From positions 62,001 to 126,000 of the forward strand of contig JAKURV010000002.1 of assembly GCA_022452035.1 (NCBI GenBank): DNA of 64,000 nucleotides, given 5' to 3'. This DNA comes from Acidimicrobiales bacterium. GTDB taxonomy: Bacteria > Actinomycetota > Acidimicrobiia > Acidimicrobiales > MedAcidi-G1. The first letter of the stretch is position 1. Each line of letters starts with the position of its first letter. The translations under genes and the position numbers were made by a program. The notes beneath the pieces are model-generated. The model was not told the origin of the DNA and ran no database searches. It saw only the letters and a program-made list of their open reading frames with translations. This document shows positions 4,557 through 20,323 of the stretch, piece by piece.

Positions 4557-4576
4557 ATCTTTTGGGACCAAACGAC
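4557..4576. promoter_or_regulatory. Putative MarR/HpaR-type operator, site 1
   Basis: The sequence ATCTTTTGGGACCAAACGAC contains the palindrome TTTGG-GA-CCAAA. It matches the best site (20304-20323) at 15 of 20 positions. It lies 63 bases ahead of the hpaE-like gene, just downstream of a possible -10 box TAAAAT at 4544-4549, where a repressor would block transcription. Binding is inferred from recurrence only. Confidence 0.5.
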
Positions 4577-4639
4577 CGGGTCCGTCGGCTGCCTATGTGC
4601 ACTTGAGGCGCCGACTAACTGGCAGGAAGGGGGACGGAC

Positions 4640-6130
4640 GTGGGCGAGCGACCGCGGGTTGAGGTGGCTGGCGTGCCGGTGTCGGTGGACCACTACGTAG
4701 CCGGGCGTCGCCTCTCGTCTGCCACCTCTTTTGAAGACCGTTCGCCGCTGGACTGGTCGGCCGTCTTAGCCGAGGTATCCGCAGGAGACGCTGGCGTAGC
4801 GGACGTGGCCTTGGCAGCAGCGACGGAAGCATTCGAGGGCTGGGCTGCTCTCGGTCCCTCGGGCCGCGCCCCGTATCTTCGTCGGCTGGCCGATCTGGTT
4901 GACGAGCGGGTGGCGGACCTGGCTGCAGTGGAGTGCGTCGACATGGCTATGCGCCACGAGAGCCTCCGTAACAGGGTTATCGGCCGGGGAGCGCGCAACT
5001 TCCGTGCCTACGCCGAGTTGGCGGAAGAGCACGAGGAGCGCACCTGGTCATCCAACGGCACTACCAACAGAGTGCAGCGCCTCCCGGCTGGTCCCGCCGT
5101 GGTGATTACGCCGTGGAACGCCCCATTCATGCTGGCTACCTGGAAGTTGGCCCCCGCTCTGGCCGCCGGGAACCCAGTAGTCCTTAAGCCCGCCGAGTGG
5201 TCGCCACTGTCGGCCAGCCTGCTGGCCGACCTGGTTGATGAGGCCGGGCTGCCTCCCGGAGTGTTCAACGTGGTCCAGGGGATCGGCACCGACGTGGGTT
5301 CGGCTCTGATTTCCGACCCGCGAGTCCGACGTCTCTCGTTCACCGGCTCGTCGGCCACCGCCCGAGACATCGGGGTGGCGGCCGCAGCCAACATCGTCCC
5401 ATTTACCGCTGAGTTAGGAGGCAAGGGCGCTCTGGTGGTATTTGCCGACAGTGACCTCGAGGCCGCGGCTCGCACGGCTGCTGGTCAATACGATGACTCG
5501 GGACAGGTCTGCTTGGCTGGCACGCGGCTGCTGGTCGAGGCGTCGGTTGCGGGCGATTTCCTGGCCCGGTTTCACGACCACGTGGATGCCCACGTGCTGG
5601 GTGACAGCCACGATGACGCAACCACGATCACCCCAATGATCCATCCCACCCACGTGTCCCGGGTTGAGGGCTTCATCGAACGGGCCCGGGCGGCTGGTGA
5701 CGAGGTGCTGCGTGGTGGTGCTCGCTACGTGCCTGACTGGTGGTCTGGACGGCCCGATCACGCACTATGGGTCGAGCCGACGCTGATCTCTCCGGCGTCT
5801 AACGACAGCGAGATCGTGCAGAACGAGGTGTTCGGCCCCGTTCTGACCTTCCAGACGTTCGCCAGCGAGGATGAGGCGGTGGCTCTTGCCAACTCCACTG
5901 CCTACGGTCTTTCAGCCACCCTGTTCACTGGCTCGGCGCAGAGGGCTGAACGGGTCGGCGGTGCACTGCGGGCCGGCACCACCTGGGTCAACTGCTTCTT
6001 GGTACGTGACCTGACCGCTCCGTTTGGGGGCCTCGGGATCAGCGGGTTGGGCCGCGAGGGCGGCGACTATGCGCTGGAGTTCCACGCCGACCTGAAGACC
6101 CTCCAAGTGAAGGATGGGACGATTAGTTGA
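4640..6130 (+). CDS. hpaE: NAD(P)-dependent aldehyde dehydrogenase, HpaE-like (carboxymethyl-hydroxymuconate semialdehyde dehydrogenase type)
   Basis: The 496-residue product is a full-length aldehyde dehydrogenase. PWNAPFMLATWKLAPALAAG and VLKPAEWSP form the cofactor domain, FTGSSATARDIG is the Gly-rich loop, ELGGK carries the general base Glu, and SGQVCLAGTRLLVE carries the catalytic Cys. The C-terminus WVNCFLVRDLTAPFGG followed by GLGREGGDYALEF is typical of the HpaE and aminomuconate semialdehyde dehydrogenase branch. That branch oxidises ring-cleavage semialdehydes. Given the hpaD-type dioxygenase and hpaG-like genes in the block, oxidation of 5-carboxymethyl-2-hydroxymuconate semialdehyde is the best inference. 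2-aminomuconate semialdehyde, from the adjacent tryptophan route, is a real alternative. The GTG start has a good GGAAGGGGG ribosome-binding site 8 bases upstream, and operator site 1 lies in the promoter region. Confidence 0.8.
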   Translation: MGERPRVEVAGVPVSVDHYVAGRRLSSATSFEDRSPLDWSAVLAEVSAGDAGVADVALAAATEAFEGWAALGPSGRAPYLRRLADLVDERVADLAAVECVDMAMRHESLRNRVIGRGARNFRAYAELAEEHEERTWSSNGTTNRVQRLPAGPAVVITPWNAPFMLATWKLAPALAAGNPVVLKPAEWSPLSASLLADLVDEAGLPPGVFNVVQGIGTDVGSALISDPRVRRLSFTGSSATARDIGVAAAANIVPFTAELGGKGALVVFADSDLEAAARTAAGQYDDSGQVCLAGTRLLVEASVAGDFLARFHDHVDAHVLGDSHDDATTITPMIHPTHVSRVEGFIERARAAGDEVLRGGARYVPDWWSGRPDHALWVEPTLISPASNDSEIVQNEVFGPVLTFQTFASEDEAVALANSTAYGLSATLFTGSAQRAERVGGALRAGTTWVNCFLVRDLTAPFGGLGISGLGREGGDYALEFHADLKTLQVKDGTIS

Positions 6131-6164
6131 TGGATCACCTTGATCCGTCAGGCATGATCTGACG
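6128..6164. promoter_or_regulatory. Nested inverted repeats before the acyl-CoA dehydrogenase gene
   Basis: TGATGGATCA (6128-6137) and TGATCCGTCA (6141-6150) form a 9-of-10 inverted repeat with a 3-base spacer that overlaps the upstream TGA stop. CGTCAG (6146-6151) and CTGACG (6159-6164) form a second, perfect 6-base pair ending two bases before the ATG at 6167. This could be an operator or a translation-affecting hairpin. Confidence 0.35.
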
Positions 6165-6166
6165 CC

Positions 6167-7333
6167 ATGACTGAACTCTGGACTTCTCGACGCCGCGAAT
6201 TGGTAGGACGCGTAGCGGGGATGGGAGCAGCCTTCGCCGCTCGTGCGGATGCCGTGGATCGCAACGCGGCGTTTCCGCACGAGAACTACGCAGACCTCCG
6301 GGATGCCGGCTTCCTAGGCCTATGTATCCCGGAGGAGCATGGTGGTCTGGGAGGTGACTTCGTGACCTATGCCCTGGTGTCTGAGGAGCTTGGCCGACAC
6401 TGCGGGTCGACGGCGCTGACCTTCAACATGCACACGGCCACAATGCTGCTGACTGGGCAGATTGCCGACGATCTGGACATGTCGGACACCGAGAGGGACG
6501 AACACGACCGGCGGCGGATCGGCATGTGGAAGGGCGTCATCGACCACGGCCACCTCCACGCTCAGCCATTTAGTGAGGGACGGGCCTCCGGAGAGACTGC
6601 CGGATTCGCAGTGCAGGCTGTCCCGGTCGACGGGGGGTACCGGGTGTCGGGCCGCAAGATCTTCGCCTCTCTGTCCGAAGTTGCTGATAGCCACAACGTG
6701 ACTTGCATGGTTGAGGGGGACGACCGGGTCCGGTTTCTTGGTGTGCCGGCGGATGCAGAAGGCGTGGGTATCGAGGGTGATTGGGATCCGCTGGGAATGC
6801 GGGGCACTAACTCCAAGAACCTGCTCTTCGAGGACGCCTTCGTTCCCGCCGAATACGAGTTTCTGCCGCCCGGCTGCTTCGATCAGATGGCGACCCGGTG
6901 GCCGTACTTCTACATGACGTTGTCCTTCACCTATCTGGGGATCCAGCGTGCGGTGCTCGACTACACGGCGGAGGCTCTGCGAGGCGACGATGGTCCGGTA
7001 GAGCGTCGGGACCTGCCACAGAAACAGCACGGCTGGGCCCAGATGCGCCTTGCATGGGAACGCTCGCAGGCCCTCACCTACCGGGTACTGGGCGAGGTCG
7101 GAGTCGACCCGGGACCGGATCGGGTCGAACGGGCCTTGGCGGCCACGGTTACGGCCATGGAGACTGCACCAGAGGTGGCGGCCACCGCTGTGCGGGTATG
7201 CGGTGGCCGGTCGTTGCTGCGTCCCAGCGCACTGGAGCGGATGTATCGCGATGCCCGCTGCGGTGCCACCATGCTCCCGTGGAGTGTCGAGGCCGCCCTC
7301 GACCGTCTGGGCCGTGCTGGGCTTTACGACTGA
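6167..7333 (+). CDS. Acyl-CoA dehydrogenase family protein
   Basis: The 388-residue product has the acyl-CoA dehydrogenase layout. The N-terminal helical domain includes FPHENYADLRDAGFLGLCIP and EEHGGLGGDFVTYALVSEEL. The middle beta domain has VDGGYRVSGRKIFASLSEVA and WDPLGMRGTNSKNLLFEDAF. The C-terminal helices include the late motif VCGGRSLLRPSALERMYRDA. These flavoproteins dehydrogenate acyl-CoA thioesters, but some relatives act as monooxygenases or desulfurases on non-CoA substrates. It lies 36 bases after hpaE and 27 bases before the NicX-type gene, so the three look like one operon. Its substrate is probably an intermediate of that pathway and cannot be named. The ATG lies directly after a pair of inverted repeats. 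Confidence 0.8.
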   Translation: MTELWTSRRRELVGRVAGMGAAFAARADAVDRNAAFPHENYADLRDAGFLGLCIPEEHGGLGGDFVTYALVSEELGRHCGSTALTFNMHTATMLLTGQIADDLDMSDTERDEHDRRRIGMWKGVIDHGHLHAQPFSEGRASGETAGFAVQAVPVDGGYRVSGRKIFASLSEVADSHNVTCMVEGDDRVRFLGVPADAEGVGIEGDWDPLGMRGTNSKNLLFEDAFVPAEYEFLPPGCFDQMATRWPYFYMTLSFTYLGIQRAVLDYTAEALRGDDGPVERRDLPQKQHGWAQMRLAWERSQALTYRVLGEVGVDPGPDRVERALAATVTAMETAPEVAATAVRVCGGRSLLRPSALERMYRDARCGATMLPWSVEAALDRLGRAGLYD

Positions 7334-7360: not shown

Positions 7361-8398
7361 ATGAGCGTTCCGTGGCACCGGGTCGAGGCCTTCTCGGATC
7401 ACTTTGTCCGCTGCGCAGTGACGACCGAAGAGACGGCGGTGGTCCTTGCCGAGGACGACAGCCGACCCGAGTTGGTCGAGGTGGCGGTACTGGCCCTCCA
7501 GCGCCTCGGTGTGGCGGTGTCGACGATGGTGGTGCCTACACCGCCGAATCGGGGACCGGTGCCGGTGCGTTCCACGGGAGCCACGGTGGCTATCGCCCAC
7601 AACCCAGCCGTCGTCGCGGGCCTGGCCGCCTCCGACTTCATCGTGGACTGCACCGTGGAAGGCTTGTTACACGCTGAGGAACGCTTGGCACTACTCGCCG
7701 ACGGCGCTCGTGCCCTGATGCTCTCCAACGAGCACCCGGAGGTGTTCGACCGGGTGGGCCATGACGAGCGGATGGGCGAGCGGGTTGAGCGAGGCCGCCA
7801 GCGGCTAGCTGCTGCGTCGACCATGCAGGTCACCTCGGCTGCAGGAACCAACCTCACCGTGGACCTGGAGGGTGCTGCGGTAGCCGGCTCGGACGGCACG
7901 GTCACAGCGCCGGGTGGTATCTCCCACTGGCCTGGCGGACTCGTGCTGTGCTTCCCGGCCGCCGGATCAACCTCAGGTACCGTGGTGATGGCACCGGGTG
8001 ACGCCAATCTGACCTTCAAGGAGTATGTGCGGTCGCCAATCGCCTGCACGCTGGAGGCCGATCACGTAGTAGCCGTAGAGGGAGACGGCTTGGATGCCGA
8101 GTTGTTCTCTTCTTACCTGGCGGCGTGGGAGGAGCCTGAGGCCTACGCAGTGAGTCATTTAGGTTGGGGCATGAATCACGCCTGCAGGTGGGACGTCCTC
8201 CCCTTGTACGACAAGGCTGACGTGAACGGCACGGAACTACGGGCCTTCGCCGGAAACTTCCTGTGGTCGACCGGTGCTAACGAGGTTGCCGGCCGATTTT
8301 GCCGAGGACATTTCGACTTGCCGATGCGTAACTGCACTGTCACCCTCGACGGTGATCCCGTGGTGGTCAACGGCGTGCTGGTTGACGAACTGGCCTGA
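7361..8398 (+). CDS. NicX-type 2,5-dihydroxypyridine 5,6-dioxygenase family protein
   Basis: The 345-residue product resembles the M29-aminopeptidase-like family that includes NicX, the iron dioxygenase opening 2,5-dihydroxypyridine in nicotinate breakdown. Supporting segments are the central AGTNLTVDLEGAA, the glycine-rich GGISHWPGGLVLCFP, and the metal-region motifs SHLGWGMNHACRW and GNFLWSTGANEVAGRFCRGH near the C-terminus. Length fits NicX. It is the last gene of a probable hpaE-acyl-CoA dehydrogenase-nicX operon and converges on a P450 gene. Ring cleavage of an aminated or pyridine-type aromatic would fit the neighbourhood. Some family members are true aminopeptidases or unassigned, so the family is confident and the reaction is not. 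Confidence 0.72.
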   Translation: MSVPWHRVEAFSDHFVRCAVTTEETAVVLAEDDSRPELVEVAVLALQRLGVAVSTMVVPTPPNRGPVPVRSTGATVAIAHNPAVVAGLAASDFIVDCTVEGLLHAEERLALLADGARALMLSNEHPEVFDRVGHDERMGERVERGRQRLAAASTMQVTSAAGTNLTVDLEGAAVAGSDGTVTAPGGISHWPGGLVLCFPAAGSTSGTVVMAPGDANLTFKEYVRSPIACTLEADHVVAVEGDGLDAELFSSYLAAWEEPEAYAVSHLGWGMNHACRWDVLPLYDKADVNGTELRAFAGNFLWSTGANEVAGRFCRGHFDLPMRNCTVTLDGDPVVVNGVLVDELA

Positions 8399-9718: not shown

Positions 9719-9729
9719 TGCAACGACGC

Positions 9730-10554
9730 TTACGAACCAGCTCCCGGCCGCAGGTCGGCCAGTGTGGTGCCGCCGTTCCACGACACACCCACGCTGCGCC
9801 AGTAGCCGGCGATCATCTCCCGAGGAGCGAGGCGGCTGAGTTCCTCGACCGGAGATTCGAATACCCGCAGGTCGACGTCACCGGTGAAGGCCGGACTTAC
9901 CTCGGCGTCATAGCCCTGCATGGTGACCAGTTCGTTCAGCGAATCGGTGCCGTCAACCTCGATGGTCGGCAGAAACCGGTGGTGGAGCATGGGCAAGGCG
10001 TTGACGAACCCGGAGTGTTCGCTAGGACCGGTGATTGTGAACTCGGCTTCGACCAGTCGGCGTCCGTAGGCAGAACAGGTAGCACCGAAACGGCCACCTG
10101 GTTTGAGGCGGGGGCCGGCCTTCCCGACGGTGACCGGTCGGGTCATCCAGATGTCGCCGAGCTTCTTGGGGTACCCCTGTACATGGCCGCGGAGCATGGC
10201 GTAGTCCTTGTCGACCCAGATGTAGACGCAGCGGCTGTAGGTCTCGCCCTCATACGTGCAGCGGACGACGACTAAGCACTCCTTGTATTGAAGGCGGTCA
10301 GGGTCGACCACTTCGTTGAAGTCGTTGGAGCACGACTGCCAGTCGGCCCAGATAACGGCTACAGCTCCCGGGTCCTCGTTTGCCGGGGCCAGCGGTTCCG
10401 GGAGCAATTCGGCCACCGCCACTGGGTCGGCCCGGTACTCCACGGTGAGCATGTCGCCCGAGTAGTGCCAGGGTGGTGACGGGACGAGAGCCGAGGCTCC
10501 CGTAGCACTGCGGGGGAAGGTGAAGCCCTTTAGGTTCGGCATGCGGGACAGCAT
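9730..10554 (-). CDS. Acetoacetate decarboxylase family protein
   Basis: The 274-residue product matches the acetoacetate decarboxylase fold. The motif HVQGYPKKLGDIWMTRP holds the paired lysines in which one forms the Schiff base with the substrate, and earlier segments (MLTVEYRADPVAVAELLPEP, AVIWADWQSC) fit the N-terminal half. Acetoacetate itself is not certain, because many relatives act on other beta-keto acids or on ring-cleavage products. It leads a two-gene operon with P450 paralogue 1 and is divergent from an FAH-fold hydrolase, with a shared 20-base palindrome directly upstream. The ATG at 10554 abuts that palindrome; the ATG at 10542 (MPNLKGF) is an equally plausible start and leaves more room for a leader. 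Confidence 0.78.
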   Translation of the reverse strand: MLSRMPNLKGFTFPRSATGASALVPSPPWHYSGDMLTVEYRADPVAVAELLPEPLAPANEDPGAVAVIWADWQSCSNDFNEVVDPDRLQYKECLVVVRCTYEGETYSRCVYIWVDKDYAMLRGHVQGYPKKLGDIWMTRPVTVGKAGPRLKPGGRFGATCSAYGRRLVEAEFTITGPSEHSGFVNALPMLHHRFLPTIEVDGTDSLNELVTMQGYDAEVSPAFTGDVDLRVFESPVEELSRLAPREMIAGYWRSVGVSWNGGTTLADLRPGAGS

Positions 10555-10574
10555 ATCTTTTGGTCCCTAATGAT
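10555..10574. promoter_or_regulatory. Putative MarR/HpaR-type operator, site 2
   Basis: The sequence ATCTTTTGGTCCCTAATGAT matches the site at 20304-20323 at 17 of 20 positions. It lies between the divergent decarboxylase-like/P450 genes and the FAH-fold gene at 10635, so one bound repressor could control both directions. Confidence 0.6.
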
Positions 10575-10634: not shown

Positions 10635-11504
10635 ATGACAAGGAACCGAAGCGCTACTCGCGAGACGCGGCGGATTCTCCTAGACGGGTCGGTGACCTCC
10701 GTATCGGTGGATGGCGACCATCTAGTGGCCGACGACGGCTGGCGCATCCCAGAGTCCGAGGCGTTCCACCTCCCTCCCAGTGAGCCATCCAAGATTCTGT
10801 GCGTCCACCTCAACCACGTCAGTCGGGTCGAAGAGTTCCAGGTTTCGCTGCCGGCAGCGCCTACCTACTTTCACAAGCCCACGTCTTCGCTGAACGGACA
10901 TCGAGGAGACGTGGTGCGTCCTGAGCGCTGTCATTGGCTGAACTATGAGGGCGAGATCGTCATCGTGATTGGCCGGCCTTGTCGCAATGTGAGTCCGAGC
11001 GACGCAGGTGAGTACATCGCTGGATACACGATCGGGAATGACTACGGCCTGCATGATTTTCGAGACACCGACGCCGGTTCAATGCTGCGGGTCAAGGGGT
11101 CGGACACCCTGTGCCCGGTAGGCCCCGGTCTGGTGGAAGGGTGGGACTTCCGTGGCAAGGGCATCCGGACACTGGTCAATGGCAAGGTCGTGCAGGACGG
11201 CAATACCGAAGAGATGACCTGGGATATGCACTACCTCGTAGCGGATCTAGCCAGGACGATCAGTCTGTATCCCGGCGACATGATCTTCTCGGGTACCCCA
11301 GCCAATTCCCGGCCCGTCAGCCCGGGCGATGTGGTCTCAGTAGAAGTCGAAGGTCTGGGTGTACTTGAGAACACGGTCGTGGCAGGACCAGATGAAATTC
11401 GCGACGATGTAGGAGCTCAACCCTCCCAGTCTGAAGAAGTTCTCTCGACAGCGCTCGGTGGGGACTGGGAATTTCGCGGCATTCGTCCCCCTCACCGGGG
11501 TTAG
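10635..11504 (+). CDS. Fumarylacetoacetate hydrolase-fold protein, HpaG-like, copy 1
   Basis: The product of about 289 residues belongs to the FAH superfamily, which includes HpaG (opet decarboxylase/HHDD isomerase) and acylpyruvases. The metal site is visible in the order NYEGEIVIVIG (ExE), then NDYGLHDFRDTD. Further along are RVKGSDTLCPVGPGLV, DLARTISLYPGDMIFSGTPA and a C-terminal VEVEGLGVLENTVV, all standard positions for this fold. It probably processes a ring-cleavage product as a decarboxylase, isomerase or C-C hydrolase. The ATG at 10635 is chosen because GTGGGAG lies just upstream; a longer TTG frame would run through the operator. The gene precedes the Liv-type transporter genes by about 90 bases. 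A second, less similar FAH protein follows hpaD at 21294. Confidence 0.82.
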   Translation: MTRNRSATRETRRILLDGSVTSVSVDGDHLVADDGWRIPESEAFHLPPSEPSKILCVHLNHVSRVEEFQVSLPAAPTYFHKPTSSLNGHRGDVVRPERCHWLNYEGEIVIVIGRPCRNVSPSDAGEYIAGYTIGNDYGLHDFRDTDAGSMLRVKGSDTLCPVGPGLVEGWDFRGKGIRTLVNGKVVQDGNTEEMTWDMHYLVADLARTISLYPGDMIFSGTPANSRPVSPGDVVSVEVEGLGVLENTVVAGPDEIRDDVGAQPSQSEEVLSTALGGDWEFRGIRPPHRG

Positions 11505-11594
11505 GTCCTCGCGATCCGCGAGTTGGACCCCAAATAGTTCGAGGTCTACCTTTTTATGAATTGTGAACTGGTGTCTTCTGAGGGGGCAATCGGA

Positions 11595-12791
11595 GTGAAG
11601 AAGTCAGCAATTATCAGCATCCTGCTCGCGTTGTCTTTGCTTGCCGCAGGATGCGGCAGCGATGAGGACTCGTCTTCGACACTGAAGGTGGGCTACGCAG
11701 CGGACCTTTCCGATCTGGGTGGCTTTGCAGATATGCCTGCGAGTCAGGCCGGAGAGCACTTTGTTGCTCTAGTCAACTGCGCTGGTGGTATCGACGCAGA
11801 AGTTGGGATCGATATTGATGCCGTATTGGCGACAGACCTCGACAACTGCAGCGAGGTTTCCGGGACAACACTCGAATGGATGATGGAGAACATCGCAGGT
11901 GACCCCGAGGTGACTCAACGTGCGAGCCAGTCCCTTATCGATTGGGGTGCTTCGGCGTTGCTAGGTCCGCCATTCCCGGACTTTGGAGAACCGCTTCTCC
12001 AGGTGACCGCCGGTGAGATTCCAGTTCTTTTCGTGGCCTCAACTGAGCCGACGTTGGCCGACGCGTCGATTAACTCCTATCTGGTCGCGTTCGACGACAC
12101 AATGCAGGCCACCGCGGCGGCCGAGTTCGCGCTGGATCAGGGTTGGTCCACAGCGGTCACGTTCTCTGCCCCTGGCCCCTATTTTGGTTACAACCCCGAA
12201 GTGTTTACCGAGGTCTTCACTGCCGGGGGCGGTTCAATTATCGCCGACTACGGCTTTGCGCCTATCGACGACATGGACTTCTCGACGCAGGTCAACGAAC
12301 TCGCTAGTGGAGGACAGGCACCGGACGTGGTTTATTCGGCCATGTTGTCGTTCCAGTCCGCTGTCCTGCGGGGCCAAATGGATGCAGCGGGTGTAACGAC
12401 CAACTACTTGGTGACGGACGCGTTTGAGGCCACGGGCGGTTACTTCACCGACGGGGTCGAAGGCTTCTACCACACGACCCATTCGTTCCCGTCCGAGGGC
12501 AGTCGTATTAAGGCTCTTGCCGACAGCTATGAGGCGACATACGGCGCACCGCTTGAGAACGCTTCATTCGGTGGTTTGGCTGTAGACGCGATCGCAGTTG
12601 TGATCGACGCGTTCGCTCGGACCAAATCAACGGATCCGAAAGTTCTTGGTGCGGCGATCAAGAACGCCAAGGATGTCCACGGGGCGACCGGAGATCTGAC
12701 CTACTTGGGCTTGGGAGGCGTTCCCGACAAGCCTGTGTTTGTCCATCAAGTTGTTGGCGGTGCTCCAACTCTTGCGGCCACTATTGACTGA
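11595..12791 (+). CDS. ABC transporter substrate-binding lipoprotein, Liv/Urt type
   Basis: The product of about 398 residues starts at a GTG with AGGGGG upstream. It has a short positive N-terminus (KKSAIIS), a hydrophobic stretch and a lipobox LLAAGC, so it should be a lipid-anchored extracellular protein. The mature part is a type 1 periplasmic binding fold (LKVGYAADLSDLGGFADMPA, later DVVYSAMLSFQSAVLRGQMD and a C-terminal YEATYGAPLENASFGGLAVD). The usual relatives bind branched-chain amino acids, amides, urea or aromatic acids. Here the ligand is probably the aromatic or amine substrate of the surrounding pathway (inference). An ATG at 11556 is in frame but lacks a ribosome-binding site and would weaken the signal peptide. 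An ATPase, a permease and a permease-ATPase fusion follow directly. Confidence 0.88.
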   Translation: MKKSAIISILLALSLLAAGCGSDEDSSSTLKVGYAADLSDLGGFADMPASQAGEHFVALVNCAGGIDAEVGIDIDAVLATDLDNCSEVSGTTLEWMMENIAGDPEVTQRASQSLIDWGASALLGPPFPDFGEPLLQVTAGEIPVLFVASTEPTLADASINSYLVAFDDTMQATAAAEFALDQGWSTAVTFSAPGPYFGYNPEVFTEVFTAGGGSIIADYGFAPIDDMDFSTQVNELASGGQAPDVVYSAMLSFQSAVLRGQMDAAGVTTNYLVTDAFEATGGYFTDGVEGFYHTTHSFPSEGSRIKALADSYEATYGAPLENASFGGLAVDAIAVVIDAFARTKSTDPKVLGAAIKNAKDVHGATGDLTYLGLGGVPDKPVFVHQVVGGAPTLAATID

Positions 12792-12807
12792 GTGCGCTGG
12801 GTAGTCG

Positions 12808-13524
12808 GTGCTTGAAGTCGAATCGCTTACTACCCGTTATGGAGCGATCGCTGCCATAAGAGAAGTTGGCCTAACTGTCCGGGCCGGTGAGGTTGTCTGC
12901 CTCATCGGCCCGAACGGTGCTGGCAAGACCACGCTCCTGGCGACGGTTGCTGGTCTTCTGAAGCCCTCTAGCGGCAAGATTTCGCTCGGCGACGACGACA
13001 TCACCAGTTGGGCTCCAGACCGGATTCTCCGGTCTGGCTTAGCACTCGTCCCGGAGCACCGTCGGATCTTTGCCGACCTCACCGTCAATGAGAATCTCTT
13101 GGTTGGGGGTGTCACCAAGACCGCTGCCAGGAGAATCGAGCTGCGCAATGAGGTTGTAGAGCTCTTCCCGGCCTTGGGTAGCAAGCTGGGCACTTCGGCG
13201 GGTTACCTCTCGGGTGGTGAGGCACAGCAACTAGCTATAGGTCGCGCCTTGATGGCTGAGCCCCAGTTGCTCCTCTTGGACGAGCCGACTCTCGGGCTTT
13301 CCCCAAAGCTTGCTGATGTTGTTTTTGATCTCATCGAGACACTCAGAAATGCCAGCCTCACCCTCTTAGTCGTTGAGCAGAGTGCCCAGCGGATTCTCGA
13401 AGTTGCGGACCGTGGATACGTGCTGCGATCTGGAGAGGTTGTAGCTAGTGGCCTCGCCCGTGACTTGCTCGCGCGCCAAGATCTTTTTGATACCTATCTC
13501 GGCCGAAATGTCGACCTCGTATGA
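12808..13524 (+). CDS. livF: Liv-type ABC transporter ATP-binding protein (LivF-like)
   Basis: The 238-residue ATPase has Walker A GPNGAGKTT (about residues 35-43), the Q-loop replaced by a typical LivF VPEHRRIFADLTV segment, the signature YLSGGEAQQLAIGRAL, Walker B PQLLLLDEPTLGLSP, and the switch region VVEQSAQRILEVADRGYVLR. The LivF branch is recognisable by the early KTTLLATVAGL and ENLLVGG elements. It would energise import of the ligand bound by the upstream lipoprotein. The start is a GTG 17 bases after the lipoprotein gene, and the end overlaps the permease ATG by four bases. The order binding protein, ATPase, permease, fused permease-ATPase is not the E. coli order. Confidence 0.88.
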   Translation: MLEVESLTTRYGAIAAIREVGLTVRAGEVVCLIGPNGAGKTTLLATVAGLLKPSSGKISLGDDDITSWAPDRILRSGLALVPEHRRIFADLTVNENLLVGGVTKTAARRIELRNEVVELFPALGSKLGTSAGYLSGGEAQQLAIGRALMAEPQLLLLDEPTLGLSPKLADVVFDLIETLRNASLTLLVVEQSAQRILEVADRGYVLRSGEVVASGLARDLLARQDLFDTYLGRNVDLV

Positions 13525-14408
13525 CCGAACTTCTTCAGCAGGTCGTGGATGGCTTCGGTCGTGGTGGGATCTACGCGCTGATTGCCCTGGGGATCGCGGT
13601 CATTTTTGGGGTGATGCACCTGGTGAATTTCGCTCATGGCGAGCTCATAACCGTGAGTGCCTATGCGGCTTACGGCCTTTTCGTCGCTGGATGGGACTGG
13701 TGGCTTATTGCCCCAGCGATTGTCCTGATTGCTGGCCTGACATCGGTGGCCATCGAGTTCGTTGCTTTCCGCTGGGTAAGGGGAGCGCCAGATTTCACAA
13801 TGCTCATGACGTCGTTTGGTGTTCACTTCTTGGTGCAGGCCGCGTTCGTGATGTATGTCTCGGCAAACTTCCGCCAGTTCCCCCGGCCGGGATGGATCTT
13901 TCAGACTTGGAAAGTGGGCGGCGTCAGCCTGGAAGTGTTCGACCTTCTGGTCATTCTCTTCACTCTCCTGACACTGGGTGCCACGTACTGGGTACTTCAG
14001 CGCACGATGTTCGGGATGAGTTTGCGGGCAGCTGCTGAGGACTTTGATGCCGCCAGACTGATGGGGATTCGGAGTGATCGGATCATTCGCGGCGCCTTTG
14101 CACTCTCTGGTTTGCTAGCTGGAGTTGCCGCCGTCTTTTGGCTGATGCGCAGCGGCCAGGCAGGGCCAACGGCGGGACTCAGCCCAATGCTCAAAGGCGT
14201 GCTTGCTGCCCTTATCGGAGGGCTCGGAAGCCTTACTGGAGCGGTCATGGGCGGCGTCATACTCGGTCTCGCCGAGGTACTCCTGATCTCTCGCCTTCCA
14301 GAAGGCCTGGTGGGCCTAACCGACGGGATCGTCTTCCTCCTCATAGCGCTTCTCTTTGTCTTCAGACCACAAGGCCTCATAACCGTGCGTCGGGCGGAGC
14401 GCGTGTAG
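13521..14408 (+). CDS. livH: Liv-type ABC transporter permease (LivH-like)
   Basis: The 295-residue permease starts with the LivH signature VVDGFGRGGIYALIALGIAVIF and GVMHLVNFAHGELI, and has about eight hydrophobic segments. The conserved cytoplasmic coupling loop reads FGMSLRAAAEDFDAARLMGI, ahead of a membrane segment. The C-terminal half contains GVLAALIGGLGSLTGAVMGG, also standard for the family. It starts with ATG overlapping the livF stop and ends in TAG overlapping the GTG of the next gene (TAGTG), so the four genes are one tight operon. It supplies one half of the membrane pore. Confidence 0.9.
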   Translation: MTELLQQVVDGFGRGGIYALIALGIAVIFGVMHLVNFAHGELITVSAYAAYGLFVAGWDWWLIAPAIVLIAGLTSVAIEFVAFRWVRGAPDFTMLMTSFGVHFLVQAAFVMYVSANFRQFPRPGWIFQTWKVGGVSLEVFDLLVILFTLLTLGATYWVLQRTMFGMSLRAAAEDFDAARLMGIRSDRIIRGAFALSGLLAGVAAVFWLMRSGQAGPTAGLSPMLKGVLAALIGGLGSLTGAVMGGVILGLAEVLLISRLPEGLVGLTDGIVFLLIALLFVFRPQGLITVRRAERV

Positions 14409-16258
14409 TGCCCAGACGGATGGTTGATCGTCTGGTTCTTCCCCTGGCGGGATCTTTAACCACGTATCTGCTCCTTGTCGGCGGCGGGATCATCTACACA
14501 GCCGTTGGGAACTCTGCGAGCGAGGGTCTGGTTACCCAGATGCTCATCAACGCGATTGTTGTACTCGGAATCCAGATCTACATCGGCAACACAGGTGTTC
14601 TCTCCTTTGGACATATCGGCTTTGGGGCCATCGCTGGCTATGCATTTGCTGTTTGCGCAATTGCCCCGGAACGAAAAGCAGTACAGATCCCGGATGCTCC
14701 GTTTGGCCTAGCTGAAGTGGCCCTGACCCCGTTTCAGTCGTCCTTGACCGCAGCACTCATCGCGGTAGTGGTTGCTTTCGTCATTGGTTTGGGACTTGCT
14801 CGTTCGGGAGCACGTTCGGGTGCCGTAGCTGCCACAGTCATCACCCTCGCGTTGCTGTTCGTTGTCCACGAAGTCGCAAGGAATTGGATTGACCTGACTC
14901 GCGGCGGCAAGACAGGACTCTCCTTCAGTCCGCTCGGGGGCGTGACACTTCAAGGGCGGGGATGGATCTATCTGGCGTTGCTCCTCGCCCTCCTGGTAGC
15001 GCGGCTCTTCAAGGAAACGAGATATGGCCGGCTCGCCCAGGCCGCGCGAGAAGATGATCTGGCAGCACGTTCAATGGGGATTCATCCCGCGTTACAGCAG
15101 ATGATCGCACTCCTATTGTCCGTCTTCGTTGTGTCCATTGGAGCAACTCTTCGGGTATTTGAACTCGGAAGTATCAATCCGAGACTCTTCTTCTTCAAAT
15201 ACACCCTGCTTACCTTGACAATGCTCATTGTCGGAGGTCGAAACAGCGTCACGGGTTCTCTCGTAGGTGTAGTGATCATCAGTACCGGTAGCGAACTCAC
15301 TCGTTACCTCGCCGGGCCGTCAGTTGACCTTCCATTTCTCGACTGGGTCCTTCGAAGCGGACTCACGGATGTATTTCTTGGTGCATCAATGCTGGGCTTC
15401 ATGATCTTCAGGCCTAATGGAATCTTGGGAGACTGGGAGCCCGATCATTGGTTGACGAGGCGCGCAACTAGGAAGCCCGGAGATCAGCCACCCGCCCTTC
15501 GTCCAGTTGAGGATTCTCGCCCCGAAGGCTTCCTCCATGCGACCGGGATAGTCGTTGATTTCGGAGGATTCCGAGCGCTCGATGGGGCAAGCCTGACGGC
15601 CTCGAGCAATGAGGTAGTCGGCCTCATCGGCCCTAATGGGGCCGGGAAGACCACGCTGCTGAACGCAATCACGTCTCTTGTCACCTCCAGCGCTGGGTCG
15701 ATTCGGCTAGACGAGCAAGTTCTCGACGGTCTGCCTTCACACCTGATCGCCCGGGCTGGGATTGTCAGGACCTTTCAGAACCTCAGGTTGTTTCCTGCAC
15801 TTTCAGTCGAGGAGAACATCGAAGTCGCCCGTCTAGCAACTGCCGGACACATTGCCGGCCGCTCGCTGCCGGACGTTGAACTCTTGGTTCGTGCCAGTGG
15901 CTTGGCAGAGCTCCGACATCGGCGCGCCGGTGAACTGGACTATGGGAACGCGCGGCGTCTCGAACTTGCCCGGGCGGCCGCAGCTGGCCCCCGATTTCTG
16001 CTGCTTGATGAACCCACGAGCGGCATGGGTGATCTCGAGTCGGAGCAGATGATTCACCGGATTCGAGAAATAGCGGGACTCGTTCAAGCCGGTGTCGTCG
16101 TCGTCGATCACGACCTGAACTTCATCACGGGTATCTGTGATCGCGTCTATGTCCTTGATCAGGGAAAGGTGATCGCTGTGGGCACACCCGACGAGGTTTC
16201 TCAGGACCCGGTTGTACAAGCCGCCTACCTGGGTGGGCCGATCGGCTCGTCCACCTAA
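14408..16258 (+). CDS. Fused Liv-type permease and ATPase (LivM-LivG)
   Basis: The 616-residue product joins two proteins that are usually separate. Residues about 1-335 are a LivM permease with multiple membrane helices and the motif NTGVLSFGHIGFGAIAGYAF, plus the coupling loop YGRLAQAAREDDLAARSMGI. After a linker near residues 345-375 comes a LivG ATPase: Walker A GPNGAGKTTLLNAI, IVRTFQNLRLFPALSVEENI, a variant signature LDYGNARRLELARA in place of the usual LSYGQQR form, Walker B PRFLLLDEPTSGM, and VVVDHDLNFITGICDRVYVL. The two domains are continuous in one frame with no stop or start between them. The GTG at 14408 overlaps the livH stop. Fusions of this kind are known in actinobacteria. 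The gene converges on an SDR gene six bases away. Confidence 0.88.
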   Translation: MPRRMVDRLVLPLAGSLTTYLLLVGGGIIYTAVGNSASEGLVTQMLINAIVVLGIQIYIGNTGVLSFGHIGFGAIAGYAFAVCAIAPERKAVQIPDAPFGLAEVALTPFQSSLTAALIAVVVAFVIGLGLARSGARSGAVAATVITLALLFVVHEVARNWIDLTRGGKTGLSFSPLGGVTLQGRGWIYLALLLALLVARLFKETRYGRLAQAAREDDLAARSMGIHPALQQMIALLLSVFVVSIGATLRVFELGSINPRLFFFKYTLLTLTMLIVGGRNSVTGSLVGVVIISTGSELTRYLAGPSVDLPFLDWVLRSGLTDVFLGASMLGFMIFRPNGILGDWEPDHWLTRRATRKPGDQPPALRPVEDSRPEGFLHATGIVVDFGGFRALDGASLTASSNEVVGLIGPNGAGKTTLLNAITSLVTSSAGSIRLDEQVLDGLPSHLIARAGIVRTFQNLRLFPALSVEENIEVARLATAGHIAGRSLPDVELLVRASGLAELRHRRAGELDYGNARRLELARAAAAGPRFLLLDEPTSGMGDLESEQMIHRIREIAGLVQAGVVVVDHDLNFITGICDRVYVLDQGKVIAVGTPDEVSQDPVVQAAYLGGPIGSST

Positions 16259-16264
16259 TCCTTC

Positions 16265-17026
16265 TCAGCGCGTCAACCAACCTCCATCTACCGGTAGGTG
16301 CACCCCGGTGATCCATGACGACTGGTCGGAGAGAAGGAAGGACACTGCTGAAGCGACGTCTTCCGGTTGACCAATCCGGGGAATCAGGAGCCTGTCCTTA
16401 AGCGCTTCCAGTGTCTCCGGAGCGGTAATGCCCTCCAAGGAGACGAAGTCGGTGGCGATCGGTCCAGGTGCCACTGCGTTGACTCGGATGGAGAACTTGG
16501 CCAATTCAACGGCGAGAGCCTTTGTGAGCATCTTGACCCCGCCCTTGGACGCGTTGTAATGGACCTGGCAGTAGCCGGCGGAGGAAACAACCACCTCAGC
16601 TTCGACCGTCGAGATGTTGACGACGGATCCACCGCCAGTGCTGGCAATATCACGCGCTACTTCTTGCGTGACCAGCCAAGTTCCTTTCAGGTTCACATCG
16701 ACAACCAGGTCCCACTCTTCTTCCGTTAGGTCGGCCAAAGAAGTCATGGTGACGACGCCAGCGCAGTTCACGAGCCCAGTGATTTCACCTAACCGGCTAG
16801 TTGCATTGTCTGCAGCTGACCGTATGGAACCTCGGTCTCGGACGTCTATCTCTTGAAAGATCACGCGCCCTCCTGCGGAAGCAATGGACTCACAAGTCTC
16901 GTGACCCTTTGTGACGTCACTGTCGGCCACAACAACGGACGACCCCTCGTTCGTGAGCCGTTCCGCTACGGCTCTGCCGATTCCAGAAGCCGCGCCGGTT
17001 ACAAAAACCACATTGGCTTGGCTCAT
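16265..17026 (-). CDS. Short-chain dehydrogenase/reductase
   Basis: The 253-residue product is a classical SDR. The cofactor motif is TGAASGIG (about residues 11-18), followed by an acidic residue (VVADSD) that favours NAD. CAGVV corresponds to the NAG motif, VVNISTVEA contains the catalytic Ser, and VHYNASKGG contains the YxxxK pair. The C-terminus SSWITGVHLPVDGG is typical. It would oxidise or reduce an alcohol or ketone made by the P450 upstream. The ATG at 17026 overlaps the P450 stop in an ATGA arrangement, so it is translationally coupled as the third gene of the ligase-P450-SDR operon. Confidence 0.9.
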   Translation of the reverse strand: MSQANVVFVTGAASGIGRAVAERLTNEGSSVVVADSDVTKGHETCESIASAGGRVIFQEIDVRDRGSIRSAADNATSRLGEITGLVNCAGVVTMTSLADLTEEEWDLVVDVNLKGTWLVTQEVARDIASTGGGSVVNISTVEAEVVVSSAGYCQVHYNASKGGVKMLTKALAVELAKFSIRVNAVAPGPIATDFVSLEGITAPETLEALKDRLLIPRIGQPEDVASAVSFLLSDQSSWITGVHLPVDGGWLTR

Positions 17027-18261
17027 GGTTGGTCCCACCTACACGGGAGGCCGGTGGGTCCGCGGAACTCGAATCCGTGCAGCTTGATGGCCTTACCTGG
17101 CTGGATCTCCAGATCTGGTAGACGATCGAGGATCCTTTGGGAACCGATCCTGACCACCTGCCTACCGAGCCACTCACCCAGACATCTGTGGTCGCCAGTC
17201 GCAAATGCCGCGTGGCCACCTTCGGAGCGGTGCAGATCGAACTTCTTGGGATCCGACCACCGTTCTTCGTCGAGATTCGCCGATCGAATGACTCCGGCGA
17301 CCAACGACCCTTGCGGAAGGACCTTGTCGCCTAGTCGAGTCTCACGAGTCGTCTGCCGCGTAATGGTTCCTACCGGAGAATGCAATCGAAAGACCTCCTC
17401 GACGCACCTGCGCCAGAGACCAGGTTCCAAAGCCAACTCATTTCGTAGTTGGTGATCGGCGAGCACAGTTCCAACGACTAGGCCAATCCCGTCGCGTGGC
17501 TCGTTGATGCCTCCGCTAATCATTAGGCGGACGTTGTTCACGATTTCGGATCGATCCAATGGCTGACCGTCGACTTCAGCGGCAACAAATTGAGCAATGG
17601 CTGACAGGTCGTTGCGGTTTTCAACGGTCGCATCGATTTTCTGGTCGATTGCTCTTCCCAGGGATTCGCGTGCCTGATTTCCGATAGAGGTCAATTCAGG
17701 GTCGTTCGCGAAGTTCGCTATGTCGGCACATAGCCCCTCGCACCACTGCCAGACCTGCTCCCAACCGTGAGAATCGAGCCCGAGCACAGAAGCCAAAGAG
17801 TTTGCGGCCAGGGGAGCGGCAAACGAAGTCATGAGGTCGGCCTCGCCCTCCTCAATGAATCCGTCCACCAGTTGGTCAGCGAGATCGACCAACGTCTCCG
17901 AAGCAAAGCTCCCGGCCACCCCACCAGCCTGGAAGATTGGGAGCATTGCATCTCGCGTTCGAGAGGCCTCAGGTTTGTCCTTGGTGAGCATGTTCGGACC
18001 TAGTGCTCTTGCCAAGAAAGACGGGCTGGTGTTGGCAGTGAAGACATCGGGGTGATCTTCCATGTGGATGAGGTCATCCCATTTCGTGACCATCCACATA
18101 TCGAGAGACGGCACAAAGCAGACGGGTTCCTCCGCCCGCATCCGAGCAAGAATCGGATCAGGGTCGAGTTCCAACTCTCTTAGGTTGACCGACTCGCCGA
18201 TGTTCAAGGTCGAGCACAACTTTCTGGTCGCTAGAGGTACGGGAGGTAGGTCTGCTTCTCC
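17023..18261 (-). CDS. Cytochrome P450, divergent type, third gene family member in the block
   Basis: The product of about 412 residues is a soluble bacterial P450 with heme loop FATGDHRCLGEWLGRQ, ExxR in CVEEVFRLHSP, and an unusual I-helix ISGGINEPRDGI, where Glu-Pro replaces the common Asp/Glu-Thr pair used for proton delivery. It is not close to the two CYP125-like paralogues. The start is uncertain. The ATG at 18261 overlaps the upstream ligase gene by 31 bases; a TTG near 18216 lies inside the same reading frame just after the ligase stop. It lies between a glutamine-synthetase-like ligase and an SDR in one operon, so it probably oxidises the gamma-glutamylated product of the ligase (inference). 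Confidence 0.85.
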   Translation of the reverse strand, partial: GEADLPPVPLATRKLCSTLNIGESVNLRELELDPDPILARMRAEEPVCFVPSLDMWMVTKWDDLIHMEDHPDVFTANTSPSFLARALGPNMLTKDKPEASRTRDAMLPIFQAGGVAGSFASETLVDLADQLVDGFIEEGEADLMTSFAAPLAANSLASVLGLDSHGWEQVWQWCEGLCADIANFANDPELTSIGNQARESLGRAIDQKIDATVENRNDLSAIAQFVAAEVDGQPLDRSEIVNNVRLMISGGINEPRDGIGLVVGTVLADHQLRNELALEPGLWRRCVEEVFRLHSPVGTITRQTTRETRLGDKVLPQGSLVAGVIRSANLDEERWSDPKKFDLHRSEGGHAAFATGDHRCLGEWLGRQVVRIGSQRILDRLPDLEIQPGKAIKLHGFEFRGPTGLPCRWDQP

Positions 18262-19550
18262 CATTCTGTGAAGGAGCCGATTGTCTCTTCCCAGGTTCCG
18301 TTCGCAGCAAGGTATTTGGCCCACTCGGCTTTTTTGATTGCGATGTACTGGGCGACCATTTCTGGGCCAATCGCGTCAGTGAACTGCTCGTCGGCTTGAA
18401 GGGCTTCGATGGCAGCCCCAAGGTGATCGGGTGTGTGCTCCTCGGTGCAGGCCGTCTCAAGTGCATCCCCGGTCTCCGGATCCGGACAGGGAAGGCTCGC
18501 TTCCACACCTAGGCGCGACGCAGTCAATACGGCGGCGATTGCCGAATAGGTGCTTGCCGCTCCGTCGGGCATTCGGTTCTCAAGGCGAGTTGATGCGTCG
18601 CGTTCCGGGTTTACGCGAACCGTGGCGCACCTATGGTCATGCCCCCAGTTCTTCCAGTAACCGGAGATTTGGCCGGGCAACAGGCGCTTGTAGGAGTTAG
18701 CCGTAGGTGCGCATAGCGCTGCCATCGCGGACATGTGGTGGAGTTGTCCGGCGATACAGAACTTCGCGAGCGCTGAGAGTCCATCTGGAGCCGATAGATC
18801 GACCATGGCGTTGTTGCCGGAACTGTCTTCCAGGCTCAGGTTGACATGTAGCCCGTTACCTCCATATTCCGGGATCGGTCGCGGCATGAAGGTGAGGAGG
18901 TGCCCATTCTGCGCGGCCACTTCCATGGCCATTGTCCTGAAAAGAAACACCTCATCTGCACATGCCATTGCGTCATCGAATTCGAGGGTCAGTTCGAACT
19001 GACCCATGTCGAATTCTCCGTTGATTGATTCGACCCGGAAACCCAGTCGGTCTGCAGTCTCATCGATGGCTCGCACAATCCCCGCCGGGTCGGTACGTAC
19101 GCCTGTGCCGTAAACCATCGAACCGGGTGCGTTATAGGGACGCCATCCTCCATCGGGATCGGGTTCCATGACGTAGGCCTCTAGCTCAATCCCCACCTTC
19201 GGTTTGAAACCCATCGATTCCCAGGCGCTGACCGCATTGCGAAGCACTGTCCTTGGAGCTAGGGGTACTGGCTCACCATTTCGCTCAAGATCCCCAACGA
19301 CGACGCCAACGCCGTCCTCCCAACCTGGCCTTATCTCAGACATGTCGAAATGGCATTCCATGTCTGGCATTCCCTCAAGGAATCCCGTTCCGGGTATTGG
19401 GCTCATGTCCCGGTCGTACTCCAAGGACAAAACAGTCAGGCAGTGTCGCGTTCCTCGTTCAGCGAGGCGGTAGGGCAGGTACTTGCCGCGAGCAAGATTC
19501 AAGTGGTCGGGCCACAGGACACGGACTCTCCTGTACTCGTCTGTTCCCAT
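18231..19550 (-). CDS. Glutamine-synthetase-like ligase (probable gamma-glutamyl amine ligase)
   Basis: The 439-residue product keeps the glutamine synthetase fold. GIELEAYVM gives the ExE metal ligands. NGEFDMGQFELTLEF gives the second pair of Glu residues. GGNGLHVNLSL corresponds to the His metal site. APTANSYKRLLPGQISGYWK and the following HDHRCATVRV give the nucleotide and glutamate binding parts. It is not housekeeping GlnA: it lacks the usual beta-Grasp start and the C-terminal adenylylation segment. Relatives such as PuuA, IpuC and the aniline-pathway enzymes join glutamate to an amine. It is first in an operon with a P450 and an SDR, and divergent from the MarR gene. Glutamylation of an amine before oxidation is the best inference; the amine is unknown. 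Confidence 0.8.
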   Translation of the reverse strand: MGTDEYRRVRVLWPDHLNLARGKYLPYRLAERGTRHCLTVLSLEYDRDMSPIPGTGFLEGMPDMECHFDMSEIRPGWEDGVGVVVGDLERNGEPVPLAPRTVLRNAVSAWESMGFKPKVGIELEAYVMEPDPDGGWRPYNAPGSMVYGTGVRTDPAGIVRAIDETADRLGFRVESINGEFDMGQFELTLEFDDAMACADEVFLFRTMAMEVAAQNGHLLTFMPRPIPEYGGNGLHVNLSLEDSSGNNAMVDLSAPDGLSALAKFCIAGQLHHMSAMAALCAPTANSYKRLLPGQISGYWKNWGHDHRCATVRVNPERDASTRLENRMPDGAASTYSAIAAVLTASRLGVEASLPCPDPETGDALETACTEEHTPDHLGAAIEALQADEQFTDAIGPEMVAQYIAIKKAEWAKYLAANGTWEETIGSFTEWEKQTYLPYL

Positions 19551-19646: not shown

Positions 19647-19666
19647 ATCGTTCGGTACCGAATAGT
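19647..19666. promoter_or_regulatory. Putative MarR/HpaR-type operator, site 4 (weaker)
   Basis: ATCGTTCGGTACCGAATAGT holds the perfect 12-base palindrome TTCGGTACCGAA and shares the TTnGG/CCnAA framework of the other three sites (13 of 20 matches to the best one). It lies 11 bases before the marR ATG and follows a possible -10 TACTAA at 19641, so it would suit autoregulation and might also affect the divergent ligase operon. Confidence 0.5.
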
Positions 19667-19677
19667 AGTGTCCGTAT

Positions 19678-20199
19678 ATGCCCCGAGCCTTTTCCGCAGG
19701 TGATGAGGAATTGATCGAGGCTGAACGTCTGATTCGGGACCGGATGTCGGGCCTCGACCTCGACCTCCTGTCGTTGGCGGCAGTGTCGAACGTGTTCCGG
19801 ACGGCCACGGTGCTCCGAAACCACATGGAGCGTGACGTGTTGCGTCGCCACCAGCTGTCGTGGAGTGCCTTCGTGGTGCTATTCGTGTTGCGGATCTGGG
19901 GTTCCCAAGAGTCACGCAGCTTGGCTACCGAGGCGGGAATTTCTGGAGGCACCCTTTCCGGGGTACTCGACACCCTGGAACGGAAGGGCTTAGCCGAGAG
20001 GAGAGCCATCCCCGAGGATCGGCGCCGCGTCGAGGTGGTCCTCACAGCAACTGGGACGAAGGTGGTCGACGAGGTAATGCCGGCCCTCAACCGTGAGGAG
20101 GCGCTGGTCACCGGCGGGCTTACCGACGACGAGATGGCCACCCTGGCCCGGCTACTGCGCAAGGTGTTGAGAACCACCGAGGATCTCGATGAGCGATGA
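19678..20199 (+). CDS. MarR-family transcriptional regulator (HpaR-like candidate)
   Basis: The 173-residue product is a MarR winged-helix repressor. Helices around residues 55-100 contain SWSAFVVLFVLRIWG and SRSLATEAGISGGTLSGVLD, where the recognition helix lies. The wing has the characteristic DRRRVEVVLTATG. N- and C-terminal helices for dimerisation are present. HpaR, which represses the homoprotocatechuate genes in E. coli, is of this family, and here hpaD-, hpaE- and hpaG-like genes each carry a related palindrome upstream. The gene itself has a weaker version of the palindrome ahead of its start. It is divergent from the ligase-P450-SDR operon. No Shine-Dalgarno sequence is obvious, so translation may be weak. 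Ligand and target are inference. Confidence 0.9.
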   Translation: MPRAFSAGDEELIEAERLIRDRMSGLDLDLLSLAAVSNVFRTATVLRNHMERDVLRRHQLSWSAFVVLFVLRIWGSQESRSLATEAGISGGTLSGVLDTLERKGLAERRAIPEDRRRVEVVLTATGTKVVDEVMPALNREEALVTGGLTDDEMATLARLLRKVLRTTEDLDER

Positions 20200-20303
20200 C
20201 CGGCATTCGACCAGTGCTTCGCCTCTGCTGGTTCGGCACGGCCACAAAAGTTGTTGAGGAGACGTCGGCCCTGGGCGGCTTTGAAGCAAGTGCGGAGGCT
20301 TGA

Positions 20304-20323
20304 ATCATTTGGCCCCAAATGAT
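20304..20323. promoter_or_regulatory. Putative MarR/HpaR-type operator, site 3 (best palindrome)
   Basis: ATCATTTGGCCCCAAATGAT is a 20-base palindrome with 9 of 10 paired positions. It lies 54 bases before the hpaD-type gene. TTGAAT at 20300-20305 and TTAGTG at 20322-20327 could be -35 and -10 elements, placing the palindrome between them. Confidence 0.65.

Follow-up and report, generated by a model that had tools for sequence, protein, structure and literature searches.

The window analysed here, a stretch of 64,000 nucleotides (G000:C2:62001-126000) in the 2.18-Mb genome of an Acidimicrobiales bacterium, carries a gene cluster for aromatic degradation and, within it, the gene for a MarR-family regulator of 173 amino acids (19678..20199, + strand; Pfam MarR PF01047, 46.8 bits against a cut-off of 24.6). 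Four palindromes of 20 bases each, designated S1 to S4, are located in the promoter regions of this cluster. S1 (ATCTTTTGGGACCAAACGAC, 4557..4576, one mismatch to the consensus ATCNTTTGGNNCCAAANGAT) lies between an aldehyde dehydrogenase (ALDH) operon on the + strand and the remnant of a divergent second ALDH gene on the - strand. S2 (ATCTTTTGGTCCCTAATGAT, 10555..10574, one mismatch) is common to two divergent units, one for an acetoacetate decarboxylase (ADC)-fold enzyme and a cytochrome P450 (-) and the other for a fumarylacetoacetate (FAA)-hydrolase-fold enzyme, FAH1, and a transporter (+). S3 (ATCATTTGGCCCCAAATGAT, 20304..20323, no mismatch, with perfect 9-bp arms) is situated 5' of the operon for a LigB-type extradiol dioxygenase, and S4 (ATCGTTCGGTACCGAATAGT, 19647..19666, four mismatches), the putative autoregulatory site, is common to the MarR gene (+) and an operon (-) starting with a glutamine synthetase-like (GS-like) gene. 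The four sequences were found at the positions given in the initial annotation, and the identities it listed to the site at 20304 (17/20 for S2, 15/20 for S1 and 13/20 for S4) were correct on direct comparison. Its placement of the sites in promoters and the sharing of S2 by divergent genes also stood, but two features had escaped it, namely that S1 has on its other side what is left, 54 codons, of a divergent ALDH gene and that S4 is divergent too, with the GS-like gene opposite. The hpa-like genes, described there as dispersed, form a single cluster at about 4.5-24 kb of the window. We consider it very probable that the four palindromes are operators of this MarR protein, which is predicted to repress the whole cluster and its own gene.

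The predicted S1 unit (+) includes the HpaE-like ALDH (4640..6130), which is of the CHMS (5-carboxymethyl-2-hydroxymuconate semialdehyde)/aminomuconate dehydrogenase type by its best solved structure (CHMS dehydrogenase, 2d4e), an acyl-CoA-dehydrogenase-fold flavoprotein (ACAD; 6167..7333; Pfam Acyl-CoA_dh domains), and a NicX-like ring-cleaving dioxygenase (7361..8398). Neither Pfam nor NCBIfam matched the last protein at E 0.001, and it was recognised through the solved structure 7cn3 alone (2,5-dihydroxypyridine 5,6-dioxygenase, E 8.5e-47). The remnant on the other side of S1 (4345..4505, -) shows 72% identity over 43 amino acids to the N-terminus of a longer gene in the relative G010, and in several relatives the second ALDH gene is full-length and divergent from the ALDH gene across S1. 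From S2, the leftward unit (-) includes the ADC-fold enzyme (9730..10542; Pfam ADC, scanned as 9730-10554, with the probable start codon at 10542) and, 3' of it, the cytochrome P450 (8450..9721; Pfam p450, 74 bits, scanned as 8450-9781). The rightward unit (+) includes the HpaG-like FAH1 (10635..11504, scanned as 10560-11504) and a branched-chain-type ABC transporter composed of binding protein, ATPase, permease, and permease-ATPase (11556..16258; Pfam Peripla_BP_6, ABC_tran, BPD_transp_2). The transporter has no palindrome before it in the window (7 mismatches) and is probably transcribed by read-through from S2; in two relatives, G064 and G006, a palindrome is located 5' of a related transporter operon. 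A repeat at 11522, 5' of the transporter, was rejected as a candidate for its 3-bp centre and poor match (7 mismatches). Reading away from S4 on the - strand is the operon for the GS-like ligase, a P450 and a short-chain dehydrogenase/reductase (SDR) (16265..19550; Pfam Gln-synt_C, p450, adh_short_C2). The S3 unit (20377..23915, +) includes the HpaD-like LigB, a second FAA-hydrolase-fold enzyme (FAH2), a cupin, and an FAD monooxygenase (Pfam FAA_hydrolase, Cupin_2, FAD_binding_3). In relatives of the same family, a gene for a pyridoxal phosphate (PLP) decarboxylase (Pfam Pyridoxal_deC) is located between the MarR and LigB genes; it is gone from the window (20200-20303), and S3, which lies 3' of this gene in the relatives, is retained. 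The sites altogether face six transcription units, and the regulon is larger than first proposed; the GS-like/P450/SDR operon and the ABC transporter, both missed by the initial annotation, probably belong to it too.

For a survey of the window, a symmetric matrix was constructed from 48 sites in relatives, none of them from the genome under study. These 48 sites were first found with a window-derived pattern and neighbouring species share ancestry, so that the test is independent of the four sequences but not of the motif idea. The top four scores over the 64 kb were those of S3 (33.1), S2 (28.7), S1 (25.3), and S4 (21.4), the fifth being 9.7, and the highest score in 30 Markov-1 random windows was 14.4. 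Because the matrix ranks exactly these four first, the initial list of sites is right and, at this cut-off, misses no site in the window. In the whole genome, ATCNTTTGGNNCCAAANGAT was found with up to three mismatches at five places against one for the reversed control: S3 (0 mismatches), S1 and S2 (1 each), and two places with three mismatches, C1:21088 and C3:11867. Both of the latter were treated as chance; they lie within reading frames, the one in a frame that we take, by recognition without a family scan, to be GMP synthase-like, and the other in a frame of 450 codons. By this pattern S1, S2, and S3 lie far beyond chance, and such sites are rare elsewhere in the genome. The assignment of S4 as a candidate operator is based on comparative evidence, and the window by itself does not justify it.

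An exact copy of the core TTTGGNNCCAAA is found twice in the genome, in S1 and in S3. The same core with up to two mismatches occurs at 21 places in the window against 11.5 +/- 3.7 in shuffled sequences, and none of 100 shuffles reached 21; the enrichment being only about twofold, this loose core was dropped as the main test. The twofold excess is the one observation that would agree with palindromes arising by chance. Chance is nevertheless of negligible probability as the origin of the four sites: the relatives-only matrix and the conservation in orthologous promoters refute it, and the genome scans and the counts at named loci (see below) also speak against it.

Conservation was examined in a set of 100 genomes, consisting of the own genome and 99 relatives. 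Promoters with more than 20 N or fewer than 60 bases were skipped (among them the ADC promoter of G016 and the LigB promoter of G014), the MarR promoter of G037 was not evaluable, as the contig starts within the gene, and its row was left uncounted as an artefact, and FAH1 of G064 was scored as missing since its site overlaps the estimated start. Outside one genus of the same family, g3, which is treated separately below, and with the own genome included, a site precedes ADC in 15 of 15 readable genomes (0-2 mismatches) and LigB in 14 of 15 (0-3 mismatches). Within the family, again leaving g3 aside and counting the own genome, all nine readable genomes have a site before ALDH (0-4 mismatches), and neither of two genomes of other families has one. 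A distant ADC homolog in G059 (38% identity) was not counted as an ortholog; it has no site (8 mismatches). The MarR family usually, though not universally, carries a palindromic operator in its own promoter. For the MarR gene in question such a palindrome, S4 in the window, is separated from the start codon by exactly 11 bp in all 11 readable same-family genomes (own included; up to 4 mismatches). The genes downstream within the predicted operons behave differently: the stretches upstream of the NicX-like, FAH2, cupin, FAD monooxygenase, SDR, and LivF genes show 6-9 mismatches in every row, and those upstream of ACAD 7-9 mismatches except in G064, where ACAD has a perfect site of its own.

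A MarR match with at least 41% identity over most of its length was detected in 15 of the 100 genomes. The 14 of these with at least 44% identity (own included) carry one to five sites each at up to two mismatches and no reversed-control site, and in the stretches examined none of them lacks both LigB and ADC; 39 alignment columns are invariant in 14 MarR orthologs down to 45% identity. The fifteenth genome, G071 (41% identity), has no site at up to two mismatches, and the stretch examined shows no clear genes of the pathway, but a near-copy of S4 in reverse orientation is located 5' of its MarR gene (L098 7503-7522). The conservation of the sites at orthologous promoters supports the claim of the initial annotation that the genes form one regulon under this MarR, with autoregulation and with the ADC/P450 operon included. 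This claim is further supported by the absence of sites before most downstream operon genes and by the joint absence of MarR and sites in three genomes. An additional palindrome (1 mismatch) was noted in G002:C74 (L111 842-861), 5' of an operon with arylmalonate-decarboxylase-like and M24 peptidase-like genes, which is a possible species-specific member of the regulon.

The three genomes of genus g3 (G018, G031, and G047; 78-84% complete) keep the gene order ALDH-ACAD-NicX-P450-ADC/FAH1-transporter-SDR-P450-GS in a syntenic cluster with about 60-87% identity. G018 and G031 also keep LigB-FAH2-cupin-FAD monooxygenase-P450, and the contig of G047 ends in FAH2. In these three genomes no MarR match was found at E 0.001, the gap between GS and LigB is 181-184 bp with neither MarR nor PLP decarboxylase, and the promoters of ALDH, ADC, FAH1, LigB, and GS carry no palindrome (6-8 mismatches in all three). 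Each genome has two or three sites at up to two mismatches, every one on contigs other than that of the cluster; these were taken as chance in low-GC-looking genomes. Two places with three mismatches in G018 (L106 8253 and 8353) were rejected as operators, as they fall inside the genes for P450 and ADC, and G031 and G047 show them either in weaker form or not at all. Because MarR and operators both also occur in two other families (G064 and G081), their loss in g3 would be the simpler reading, the alternative being a gain elsewhere.

The palindromes might instead be operators of another transcription factor, with MarR merely located nearby. Sites without a detected MarR ortholog in G082, G083, and four fragmented congeners would agree with such a factor, as would the fact that MarR binding is predicted from sequence. 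This is nonetheless very unlikely, because the site lies 5' of the MarR start, at a distance of 11 bp, in each of the 11 readable genomes of the family, tracks MarR down to 41-49% identity in other families, and is missing together with MarR from the three g3 genomes. The palindromes in G083 (L097 139-158, 0 mismatches) and G082 (L114 4524-4543, 1 mismatch) are near-perfect, and both genomes belong to the order and lack a close MarR ortholog.

The promoters were read by eye from the printed sequences of 10 LigB, 10 MarR, and 12 ADC genes. In all 32 a hexamer TAnnnT starts at operator position 20 or 21, and in eight of the 10 LigB promoters TTGA stands immediately 5' of the operator. The distance from the hexamer to the start codon is six bases in all 10 MarR promoters, and seven bases in 11 of the 12 ADC promoters (six in the other one). 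This spacing suggests leaderless transcripts for MarR and ADC, with the operators filling the presumed spacer between the -35 and -10 elements. The abutment of the operator on TAnnnT, a -10-like box, points to repression by blocking of RNA polymerase. We infer physical binding of MarR, and repression rather than activation, in the following manner. One predicted MarR dimer would bind each palindrome with one subunit on each half-site ATCNTTTGG, and the bound dimer would sit between the -35 region and the TAnnnT box that touches the operator. RNA polymerase would thereby be kept off the promoters of the aromatic-degradation cluster and of the MarR gene itself, until the repressor is released, presumably by an aromatic substrate or a ring-cleavage intermediate. 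In Yersinia pseudotuberculosis, according to the available text of PMC7180172, one promoter is activated by HpaR acting at a distant site, and by this precedent the MarR protein could activate, or both activate and repress. Such a mode of action is quite unlikely here, since the operators adjoin the -10-like box and occupy the presumed spacer, so that a dimer bound there would shut out RNA polymerase, and since g3 keeps the cluster without MarR.

The occurrence of the operator was also examined in named genomes. Among these, 329 relatives of MarR were confirmed by similarity, and the best 80 of the 329 loci were used; in these best 80, the nearest named relatives are Acidimicrobiales metagenome bins. 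As controls, 40 patterns were employed (39 symmetric half-site permutations and the reversed pattern). With up to three mismatches, 83 sites were identified in 54 of the 80 loci, against a control mean of 0.88 (maximum 5; reversed pattern 0). Eight loci duplicate genomes of the relatives set; after these were dropped, 72 loci remained, which are mutually related and not 72 independent trials, and 66 sites were found in 46 of them (control mean 0.75, maximum 4). Of these 66 sites, 51 are located within 200 bp 5' of a homologous gene, 15 elsewhere, and none inside such a gene. A set of 15 short loci (2-3.5 kb) of MarR paralogs contained no site. A unit common to many loci is composed of the GS-like gene, the site, and FAH1-ALDH-LigB-ADC-MarR. 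The site-bearing records include Streptomyces, Nonomuraea, Nocardioides, and Streptosporangiaceae; some bins labelled Acidobacteria carry sites at three mismatches only, and this label may be wrong.

Several observations weigh against repression by MarR through these palindromes. Among the 72 named loci, 26 have no site at three mismatches, and therefore the exact motif drifts. The LigB gene of G081 and the ALDH genes of G064 and G081 have no site of their own. Sites also occur without MarR: of the 85 genomes lacking a MarR match as defined above, 26 carry one site or more with no more than two mismatches. These 26 are four congeners with pathway genes (G004, G007, G015, and G016), in which no MarR ortholog was found, and 22 others, eight of which have reversed-control sites too. 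For the four congeners, assembly gaps are the likely explanation, as the contig ends at or within the decarboxylase gene beside MarR in G015 and G016, and the stretch examined stops short of the region in G004 and G007. A few non-target upstream stretches (P450, LivM/K) come to 3-5 mismatches in some rows, such as that of P450 in G018 with three, located within the ADC gene. A scan for sigma-70 consensus promoters gave nothing at the sites, and a clear -10 at the operator edge was not seen by eye in the FAH1-ward and ALDH-ward promoters.

The initial annotation likened MarR to HpaR, the homoprotocatechuate repressor, called the genes hpa-like, and named 3,4-dihydroxyphenylacetate as effector. 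HpaR is released by 4-hydroxyphenylacetate or 3,4-dihydroxyphenylacetate. The best NCBIfam models of MarR, ALDH, and LigB are indeed HpaR, HpaE, and HpaD_Fe, the second best of FAH1 is HpaG-C, and the closest solved structures are homoprotocatechuate 2,3-dioxygenase for LigB (8iq8) and CHMS dehydrogenase for ALDH. HpaR is moreover known to repress the meta operon and its own gene (PMC7180172, available text). None of these proteins, however, reaches the curated cut-off: MarR scored 53.3 bits on the HpaR model TIGR02337 (cut-off 121.2), ALDH 457 on HpaE (638), LigB 137 on HpaD_Fe (316), and FAH1 199 on HpaG-C (276). When 21 genomes were searched with the HpaR model, two passed, both congeners (G002, 142.1 bits; G012, 138.5 bits), and each carries the cluster-type MarR plus a separate, genuine HpaR. 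In G002 (L118 4926-8463), HpaR adjoins an ALDH with 769 bits on HpaE, above the cut-off of 638, and lies 26 kb from the MarR ortholog on the same contig; the HpaE scoring of HpaR neighbours covers G002, not G012 (L119). No palindrome was found at the HpaR loci of G002 and G012, the best matrix scores there being -0.7 and -10.4. In a tree calculated without the partial sequences L133 and L205, the two HpaR rows stand apart from the 84 rows of the family, but long branches meet there, and the family falls on one side of a branch in only 60% of bootstrap trees. The conserved GS-like, MppR-like, and P450 partners are missing from the hpa pathway as given in the available text of PMC7180172. Given the scores, the loci, and the gene set, it is unlikely that MarR is HpaR and that the cluster serves homoprotocatechuate degradation with 3,4-dihydroxyphenylacetate or 4-hydroxyphenylacetate as inducer, and the sensing of 3,4-dihydroxyphenylacetate by MarR, as first proposed, is likewise not supported. 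Pending a test, the HpaR/homoprotocatechuate label should not be used. The presence of genuine HpaR loci apart from the cluster within the same genus is a warning against 'hpa' naming from best hits. A PADLOC scan of MarR gave no match.

With respect to known systems, the predicted regulon resembles that of HpaR in E. coli W and Yersinia in that an autoregulated MarR protein acts through inverted repeats over genes for ring cleavage, a semialdehyde dehydrogenase, and a FAH-fold isomerase/decarboxylase. It differs in that the MarR of the window fails the HpaR model, that true HpaR coexists in two congeners, and that the gene set is another one. The Yersinia HpaR sites have arms of 4-5 bp and a 4-bp spacer (PMC7180172, available text), whereas the window sites have 9-bp arms and a 2-bp centre. 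CouR of Rhodococcus jostii RHA1 is likewise a MarR repressor from an actinobacterium that governs aromatic catabolism and is released by a compound of its pathway (PMC4737184, available text), but it serves p-hydroxycinnamate catabolism, a different pathway, and is likened here by description only. The window MarR matches, at E 2.6e-4, the structure 4fht of PcaV, the Streptomyces MarR regulator of protocatechuate catabolism. PcaV too is a MarR-family aromatic regulator, but the similarity is weak (24 bits) and its pathway is another one.

The enzyme set, composed of HpaD-, HpaE-, HpaG-, NicX-, MppR-, and GS-like proteins and P450s, as judged from sequence similarity, differs from the known homoprotocatechuate set. 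Neither HpaH hydratase nor HpaI aldolase was seen among the proteins scanned at 3.4-25.2 kb, although no search was aimed at them. The ADC-fold enzyme matched the structure of MppR (4jm3) with 217 bits, its K126 being aligned with K156 of the 4jm3 chain, presumably the Schiff-base lysine of MppR. On the MppR model TIGR04460 it scored 231 bits against a cut-off of 380, indicating that it shares the fold of MppR but is a different enzyme. In the ADC fold with the aligned lysine, beside genes for ring cleavage and semialdehyde dehydrogenase, it is comparable to MppR and to the ADC-like enzymes with which Saccharolobus solfataricus degrades phenol; MppR itself is biosynthetic. The S. solfataricus proteins were strongly induced on phenol and have been proposed as aldolases (PMC7820114, available text). 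By analogy, the ADC-fold enzyme of the window may end a meta-cleavage route. The FAD monooxygenase (22515-23915, +) scored 466 bits, above the subfamily cut-off of 390, on the model for 3-(3-hydroxyphenyl)propionate/3-hydroxycinnamate hydroxylases, a hint at a phenylpropanoid-like substrate.

Records from Acidimicrobiia, Streptomyces, and further actinobacteria show the conserved core together with the operator. We tentatively raise the possibility that this core (MarR, FAH, ALDH, LigB, and ADC, with the GS-like ligase and P450) represents an undescribed meta-cleavage pathway, in which the MppR-like ADC-fold enzyme would replace HpaH and HpaI in the final hydration and retro-aldol steps. A nitrogen-bearing phenol might enter it by way of decarboxylation by the PLP decarboxylase and of the GS-like ligase, and a dedicated non-HpaR lineage of MarR might exert control through ATCRTTTGGNNCCAAAYGAT. 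In a partial literature search no published pathway with such a gene set was found, and the matches listed for the half-site strings look, by title, like chance or primer matches. The predicted operator and regulator can be tested for a widespread aromatic-degradation cluster, membership of which could be read from the DNA, as genes behind the palindrome would belong to the pathway; homologous clusters in Streptomyces records allow the substrate to be sought there.

At 2335-4338 (+) of the window, a gene for an alpha/beta hydrolase precedes one that resembles tryptophan 2,3-dioxygenase (283 bits against a cut-off of 391). No operator was found 5' of the latter (8 mismatches); the two genes are perhaps a tryptophan-to-kynurenine pair.

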